Shown: piece after piece, positions 21,614-21,846 of the stretch
How the letters are laid out: each line of letters starts with the position of its first letter
Position numbering within the stretch: the stretch's first letter is position 1
Assembly: GCA_025362495.1 (NCBI GenBank)
Contig: JANYGI010000176.1
Span: 1 to 64,000, forward strand
DNA: 64,000 nt
DNA from: Byssovorax sp.
GTDB taxonomy: Bacteria > Myxococcota_A > Polyangia > Polyangiales > Polyangiaceae
Reading direction: 5' to 3'
Translations under genes and position numbers: made by a program
The notes under the pieces: model-generated
What the model was told of the DNA's origin: nothing
What the model saw: the letters and a program-made list of their open reading frames with translations, nothing else
Databases searched by the model: none

Positions 21614-21642
21614 TTGACAGCTCGCCTCGAACAGCAAAGACT
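21614..21642 (+). promoter_or_regulatory. tentative sigma-70 promoter of the Thr leader / ThrRS operon
   Basis: A perfect -35 hexamer TTGACA at 21614-21619 is followed 17 nt later by AAGACT, a poor -10. If used, transcription would start within a few bases of the leader ATG at 21653, so the leader could be translated from a near-leaderless mRNA. That would fit the absence of a Shine-Dalgarno there. Confidence 0.35.
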
Positions 21643-21652
21643 CCGCCCTCCC

Positions 21653-21727
21653 ATGAGCCTCGTCTCCACGACTACCACGACGACCACGACCCGCACCGGC
21701 GGGCCTGGTCGCGTGGGCACGCCGTAA
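21653..21727 (+). CDS. threonine leader peptide (attenuator ORF), 24 codons
   Basis: This ORF starts ATG AGC CTC GTC TCC and then reads eight consecutive Thr codons (21668-21691), Arg, another Thr, and after a Gly/Pro-rich stretch one more Thr before the TAA at 21725-21727. Ten of 24 codons are Thr. It precedes, by 119 bp, a gene for a threonyl-tRNA synthetase, so the amino acid matches the enzyme's product exactly as in the classical leader peptides of thr, his and trp operons. It was not found by size-limited gene calling. No Shine-Dalgarno is visible (CGCCCTCCC before ATG). The peptide is unlikely to have a function; the ribosome's speed through the Thr run is the signal. Confidence 0.7.
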   Translation: MSLVSTTTTTTTTRTGGPGRVGTP

Positions 21728-21780
21728 GTCGAACGAGCCTCACCCACGCAGCCAAGCCCCGCCGGATCGCCGGACGGGGC
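21696..21780 (+). promoter_or_regulatory. attenuator: alternative antiterminator and terminator hairpins
   Basis: Terminator candidate: GCCCCGCCGG (21756-21765), loop ATCG, CCGG-A-CGGGGC (21770-21780), ten base pairs with one bulged A. Antiterminator candidate: CCGGCGGG (21696-21703), just after the Thr run, pairs perfectly over 8 bp with CCCGCCGG (21758-21765), which is the 5' arm of the terminator; the two structures exclude each other. A third pairing, GCGTGGG (21711-21717) with CCCACGC (21743-21749), can form when the leader ribosome has left. A ribosome stalled in the Thr codons leaves 21696-21703 free, giving antitermination and ThrRS expression. The T-run after the terminator is short (TTT near 21790), so termination may be Rho-assisted. 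Confidence 0.6.
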
Positions 21781-21846
21781 AGCGCTGCATTTCGCGCAAC
21801 GAACGCTCTGTCCGGCCTCCCGCTCGAACCGCGAACGGAGACCGAC

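Follow-up and report, generated by a model that had tools for sequence, protein, structure and literature searches.

A probable threonine-sensing leader-peptide attenuator ahead of an editing-less threonyl-tRNA synthetase paralogue in Myxococcota and Proteobacteria

In Escherichia coli, thrL (Rfam Thr_leader) encodes a Thr-rich leader peptide that is preceded by a Shine-Dalgarno (SD) sequence and attenuates the thrABC biosynthesis operon. The element described here resembles it in combining a Thr-rich leader peptide with a stall-controlled competition between antiterminator and terminator; it differs in that thrL governs threonine biosynthesis rather than a synthetase, and in the SD sequence of the thrL leader. 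Leader-peptide attenuation of an aminoacyl-tRNA synthetase is likewise annotated for the pheM leader of pheST in Enterobacteria, which differs in concerning Phe and a housekeeping enzyme. Closest in logic is trpRS1 of Streptomyces coelicolor, an auxiliary synthetase that is reportedly under ribosome-mediated attenuation and linked to inhibitor resistance; it differs in its amino acid, Trp, and in belonging to the Actinobacteria.

Second threonyl-tRNA synthetases (ThrRSs) are encoded by Bacillus subtilis thrZ, which is T-box controlled, and by Anabaena thrS2 (T2); to our knowledge, neither has a leader peptide. Both would share with the gene studied here the induction of a second ThrRS upon failure of the first. 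The Anabaena enzyme is editing-defective and is controlled by Zur and low zinc (PMC4787780). A Thr leader on a ThrRS gene was not found described in the open-access papers searched, a scope that makes its absence weak evidence.

The locus lies in a 64-kb stretch of Byssovorax DNA, the whole of which is called the window, and consists of a 233-nt leader and a short ThrRS gene (Table 1). E. coli thrS is under autogenous control and Bacillus ThrRS genes use T-boxes, and an operator of the thrS kind or a T-box might be expected here as well. No Rfam family scored above its gathering threshold in the window or in four relatives, the T-box model matched neither in the window nor in the leader scan, Thr_leader gave no match to the leader up to E 10, and the permissive leader scan returned chance hits only. 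Both modes of control would also leave the Thr leader unexplained, and we regard them as hardly probable at all.

Table 1 Features of the leader and the short ThrRS gene in the window
Feature	Positions	Strand	Basis and remarks
-35 element TTGACA, predicted promoter	21614..21619	+	sequence; TTGAC at matching distance in most relatives
-10 element AAGACT, weak	21637..21642	+	sequence; 17 nt past the -35 element
Leader peptide ORF, MSLVSTTTTTTTTRTGGPGRVGTP and stop, 24 codons	21653..21727	+	sequence; kept at 114/119 short ThrRS loci
Eight consecutive Thr codons, presumed stall site	21668..21691	+	sequence; unique in the window
Region 2, antiterminator strand CCGGCGGG	21696..21703	+	perfect complement of 21758-21765 (CCCGCCGG)
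Extended region 3:4 hairpin with lower helix GCAGC/GCUGC	21748..21788	+	predicted fold; lower helix strands 21748-21752 with 21784-21788
Terminator-like hairpin, regions 3 and 4, no U-run after it	21756..21780	+	ten pairs, one bulged A, 4-nt loop; covariation in relatives
Region 5, CUCUGUCCGG (21806-21815) and CUCC (21817-21820)	21806..21820	+	predicted folds, putative role; CUCUGUCCGG can pair with region 4, CUCC is the predicted anti-SD
SD sequence GGAG of the ThrRS gene, predicted paired	21837..21840	+	predicted fold; P(unpaired) about 0.01 with 3:4 formed
Short threonyl-tRNA synthetase, 400 aa	21847..23049	+	profile and domain match; in a clade of 46 short ThrRSs

By profile, zinc ligands and catalytic core, the product of the downstream gene is a threonyl-tRNA synthetase: it matches TIGR00418 with 436.8 bits (cut-off 383.65), and its Cys and two His zinc-ligand motifs align with those of ThrRSs in the PDB. 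It comprises the class II core and the anticodon-binding domain only; TGS and editing domains are absent. A full-length ThrRS is encoded on another contig of the same genome. The neighbours of the short gene are a hybrid histidine kinase on the opposite strand and a wax ester synthase/DGAT, indicating that the gene appears to stand alone. In ObaO-type obafluorin-resistant ThrRSs, Ser takes the place of E. coli Gly463 (PMC11252418). The short ThrRS retains Gly at the equivalent position (in GAFYGPK) and Leu at the equivalent of Leu489 (in QLDF-LP), and an ObaO-like resistant enzyme, considered as a candidate, was ruled against on these grounds.

Short ThrRSs were gathered from GTDB species genomes by E-value limits, supplemented by other loci, and their counts are thus lower bounds. 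Of 96 Myxococcus-family genomes, at least 66 encode one; among sampled genomes, the figures are at least 12 of 379 for Myxococcota, at least 45 of 399 for the Burkholderia family and roughly a dozen of 385 for Alphaproteobacteria. A maximum-likelihood tree separates all 46 short ThrRSs placed in it from 39 full-length enzymes by a single branch, supported at 100/100. The clade has a proteobacterial and a myxococcotal half and covers Myxococcota, Burkholderiaceae and Alphaproteobacteria; one tree row labelled Alpha (L118) comes from a Myxococcota genome (G257).

The sequence-only reading had proposed a leader of 24 codons with eight Thr codons in a row and ten overall, and a base-for-base reading bears this out. 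Throughout the six frames of the whole window, this ORF is the sole site with at least six Thr per nine codons, which argues that its Thr run did not arise by chance. A Thr-codon-rich short ORF, as expected of an attenuator, is also found upstream of the related genes: at least five Thr in nine codons are present at 114 of the 119 short ThrRS loci having upstream sequence (Myxococcaceae 41/41, other Myxococcota 20/20, Burkholderiaceae 45/45, alphaproteobacteria 8/13). The five loci below the threshold are alphaproteobacterial, with fewer Thr codons. Upstream of full-length ThrRS ORFs, five Thr in nine codons were reached at only 8 of the 96 loci; one of these had six, and none had seven or more. 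At the alphaproteobacterial short ThrRS loci L208, L212, L213 and L215, decay has left 3-4 codons of the Thr run, and the terminator is kept.

An SD sequence was reported as missing from the window leader, and this holds true; it can be explained by the predicted promoter directly upstream. The predicted transcript start at about 21649-21651 would give a 5' UTR of about 2-4 nt. A TTGACA-like box, a spacer of 16-18 nt and a -10 element ending 5-10 nt before the leader start were found for 40 of 46 divergent leaders, as against a mean of 10.1 and a maximum of 22 in 300 shuffled sets; TANNNT in the relatives ends mostly 6-9 nt upstream of the leader start. An SD-like 4-mer was present in none of 86 leaders from Burkholderiaceae and Myxococcaceae, and preceded all 118 assigned ThrRS starts, a count favoured by the choice of start. 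The leader start codon is mostly GTG in Myxococcaceae and ATG in the others. The leader mRNA is hence predicted to begin at, or a few bases before, the leader start codon. Precedent for a leaderless attenuator comes from Sinorhizobium meliloti trpL, whose attenuator transcript has a mapped start site at the leader ATG (PMC7298713); that system differs in serving Trp biosynthesis, and the start is only predicted for the window element.

A leader translated in this way might also act without sensing any amino acid, for instance through translational coupling or reinitiation at the ThrRS gene, and translation of an upstream ORF is reported to be able to boost that of a downstream gene by reinitiation (PMC4833913). 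We judge this explanation very improbable, as 120 nt separate the leader stop from the ThrRS start in the window and conservation concerns the Thr run, not merely an ORF.

Folding of the leader in different ribosome states offers a more detailed view of how the Thr run could be coupled to the downstream gene. The 8-bp perfect pairing, the ten-pair hairpin and its distance of 66 nt to the ThrRS start, all proposed earlier, agree with the sequence. None of 200 dinucleotide shuffles is predicted to fold as stably as the leader (z -3.1). With a ribosome masking the leader stop, P(3:4) amounts to 1.0; with the ribosome stalled in the Thr run, it is 0.0, and 2:3 takes over with a P of 0.89. State folding, hairpin covariation and antiterminator complementarity all describe mutually exclusive antiterminator and terminator-like hairpins, as in an attenuator. 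For many relatives, folding still prefers 3:4 at equilibrium despite a stalled ribosome, which means that the switch would need kinetic, co-transcriptional folding.

Conservation of the hairpins was assessed in an alignment of 36 divergent leaders, with the badly parsed loci L010, L085, L088 and L185 left out. The terminator-like helix is paired in 90.3% of cells and shows changes on both sides in 5 of 11 pairs, with a covariation of 0.211 as opposed to 0.102 (sd 0.012) in shuffled and at most 0.126 in slid alignments. The antiterminator GGYGGG:CCCGCC is paired in 94.4% of cells, versus at most 63.4% when slid. Covariation, anticipated for both hairpins, is accordingly strong for the terminator-like one and weak for the antiterminator, the strands of which are nearly invariant. 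Relative to the Thr codons, the GGYGGG motif is found in each of the three reading frames (85, 14 and 2 cases), indicating that it is conserved at the RNA level and not through the peptide. Orthologues that had lost the Thr run or the pairing would have spoken against attenuation; both features are instead retained, in the proportions given above. Judged by eye, Myxococcaceae carry a different lower helix, GCACGG/CCGUGC, at the matching place.

We consider it very likely that the element works by ribosome-mediated attenuation, in which the charging of tRNA-Thr is sensed and an auxiliary short ThrRS is regulated accordingly, with a U-run terminator as output in Proteobacteria and perhaps translation or Rho as output in Myxococcota. 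Transcription would begin at the leader ATG or GTG or up to 4 nt upstream of it, as promoter placement suggests, and the ribosome would start on a nearly leaderless transcript. When Thr-tRNA is ample, the ribosome would reach the leader stop and cover region 2, allowing the 3:4 hairpin to form, in line with the folding. When Thr-tRNA is short, the ribosome would stall in the Thr run, and region 2 (GGCGGG) would capture region 3 (CCCGCC) and thereby block 3:4. In Proteobacteria, 3:4 and the U-run would make an intrinsic terminator, and stalling would admit RNA polymerase to the gene. In Myxococcota, including the window, where the U-run is lost, the hairpin more likely acts on translation from the ThrRS start or on Rho access. 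The result would be extra editing-less ThrRS upon failure of threonylation, whether because Thr runs out or because the housekeeping ThrRS is inhibited. Such a mechanism would assign a testable regulatory role to the editing-less ThrRS paralogues, a widespread family that appears not to have been described, and extend leader-peptide attenuation to the Myxococcota.

The sensor half of this attenuator is strongly supported by the comparison of relatives and appears to be spread well beyond the myxobacteria; the output half is supported for the Proteobacteria. On average, the ten bases past the stem contain 5.8 T in Burkholderiaceae, 6.5 in alphaproteobacteria and 1.3 in Myxococcaceae. U-runs follow the hairpin at 34 of 43 burkholderiaceal and 7 of 8 alphaproteobacterial loci, and a run of three T past the stem was seen at none of the 41 Myxococcaceae loci. 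The T-run that had been flagged as weak in the window is in fact absent from the sequence after the hairpin, GGGGCAGCGCTGCATTTC. An intrinsic terminator with a U-run thus precedes the gene in Burkholderiaceae and alphaproteobacteria, and not in the window or in Myxococcaceae, and we class the window element as an attenuator, not as a transcription attenuator. Groups with and without U-runs behind one and the same sensor form a natural series between Proteobacteria and Myxococcota.

These findings bear directly on whether intrinsic termination, as in the enterobacterial thr, his and trp operons, could operate in all groups, the window included. The order of leader, antiterminator and GC-rich hairpin is the expected one, and the U-runs of Burkholderiaceae and alphaproteobacteria are clear; set against this is their absence from the window and all Myxococcaceae. 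Canonical hairpin-plus-U sites in this part of the window moreover number 1 where 5.2 would be expected; being no commoner than chance, they may be something this genome does not rely on. Termination of this kind throughout is therefore unlikely. Absence of T-runs from the window and from 41 of 41 Myxococcaceae indicates that translation or Rho may mediate the output there, and for the window either of these is likelier than intrinsic termination. Of the attenuation first proposed from the sequence, the sensing of Thr codons by a leader attenuator on the short ThrRS gene has held up (114/119 loci, covariation, frame-independent antiterminator), and a stop of transcription by the hairpin is doubtful for this locus, which has no U-run.

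The SD sequence of the ThrRS gene offers a possible target for translational control. It is predicted to be paired in nearly all groups, with the clearest excess over shuffled linkers in Burkholderiaceae (0.94 vs 0.75) and in Myxococcota other than Myxococcaceae (0.84 vs 0.69), and the models likewise predict it to be sequestered in the window. One could envisage a two-tier switch, in which stalling leads to 2:3, the freed region 4 takes the anti-SD (4:5) before the SD is made, and ThrRS translation opens; otherwise, 3:4 and 5:6 would form. Freeing region 4 raises the predicted occupancy of the anti-SD before the SD is made, in Burkholderiaceae from 0.26 to 0.86 (shuffled region 4, 0.61) and in Myxococcaceae from 0.52 to 0.93 (shuffled region 4, 0.73), and the native 4:5 and 5:6 pairings are better than swapped partners in 38 of 47 cases each. 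The window shows the opposite effect, other Myxococcota do not on average exceed the shuffles, and the SD remains closed at equilibrium, which leaves such a switch conceivable, though we would sooner bet against it. The modelled folds suggest a second tier in Burkholderiaceae and Myxococcaceae, and not in the window. There, with region 4 freed, the SD stays closed (P from 0.01 to 0.07) and the anti-SD is freed rather than occupied, and a general two-tier model with SD opening was set aside as unsupported for this locus.

A covariance model built from the 36 leaders was used to look for similar elements before other genes; many of the searched loci were training sequences too. In 59 genomes related to the window, the model gave 8 matches above 50 bits, all at short ThrRS genes; the next-best match had 30.7 bits, and two further short ThrRS loci scored low or not at all. 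Restriction of the element to short ThrRS genes, true above 50 bits in these relatives, was given up as a general view, since other genes were matched in Proteobacteria. Some weaker matches have no Thr runs, indicating that at low scores the model also catches attenuators of other specificity.

Among 33 Burkholderiaceae loci inspected for the gene behind the leader, most have Thr-run leaders before an isochorismatase-like hydrolase (L293, L294, L296, L297, L307, L308 and L310-L323 have the attenuator before a hydrolase of this family, with leaders such as MHNATTTLSTTTRTTAFGGPVRRVRARS). A small gene with an ABM (antibiotic-biosynthesis-monooxygenase) domain lies behind MQRxLIPFVT-type Thr-run leaders at four loci (L292, L295, L309, L325), an MFS transporter at L289 and L291, with only a remnant at L288, and a full-length ThrRS at L290. 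The hydrolase, monooxygenase and MFS pump genes thus probably respond to tRNA-Thr charging, which makes them candidate defence genes against borrelidin, obafluorin and other inhibitors of ThrRS. Charging of tRNA-Thr seems to be sensed for more than the supply of synthetase.

We put forward, as a doubtful extension, a modular leaderless sensor of tRNA-Thr charging that is spread over a soil-bacterial stress regulon and induced when antibiotics block ThrRS. It would comprise the editing-less ThrRS of Myxococcota and Proteobacteria and the hydrolase, monooxygenase, efflux pump and full-length ThrRS of Burkholderiaceae, its output having switched in Myxococcota from transcription termination to control of translation.

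In alphaproteobacteria, a full-length ThrRS gene (L270) and aspartate-semialdehyde dehydrogenase genes lie behind Thr or mixed Thr/Lys/Met leaders, e.g. MSKRTQTTTTMTKKTTLRGG. The dehydrogenase loci with Thr/Lys/Met leaders are L266, L267, L275, L277, L281, L282 and L284 (gene families checked for L275, L282 and L284). The mixed composition hints at an attenuator that may respond to more than one end product of the aspartate pathway.

At L288, L289 and L291, the leader MNALFVTTTTTTTTANGGPGGGCAS is almost identical to the leader of the Burkholderia short ThrRS, and the N-terminus of the MFS protein, MMDDCDRRVSGDRVDPFRQ, is reminiscent of a short-ThrRS start that has decayed. It looks as if the pump had been substituted for the synthetase behind the sensor. 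L298, also from Burkholderiaceae, has two such Thr-run leaders in tandem. The Klebsiella plasmid pAI1547P_P2 (L252) carries a thrS-infC-rpmI-rplT-pheM-pheS-pheT segment, apparently of chromosomal origin.
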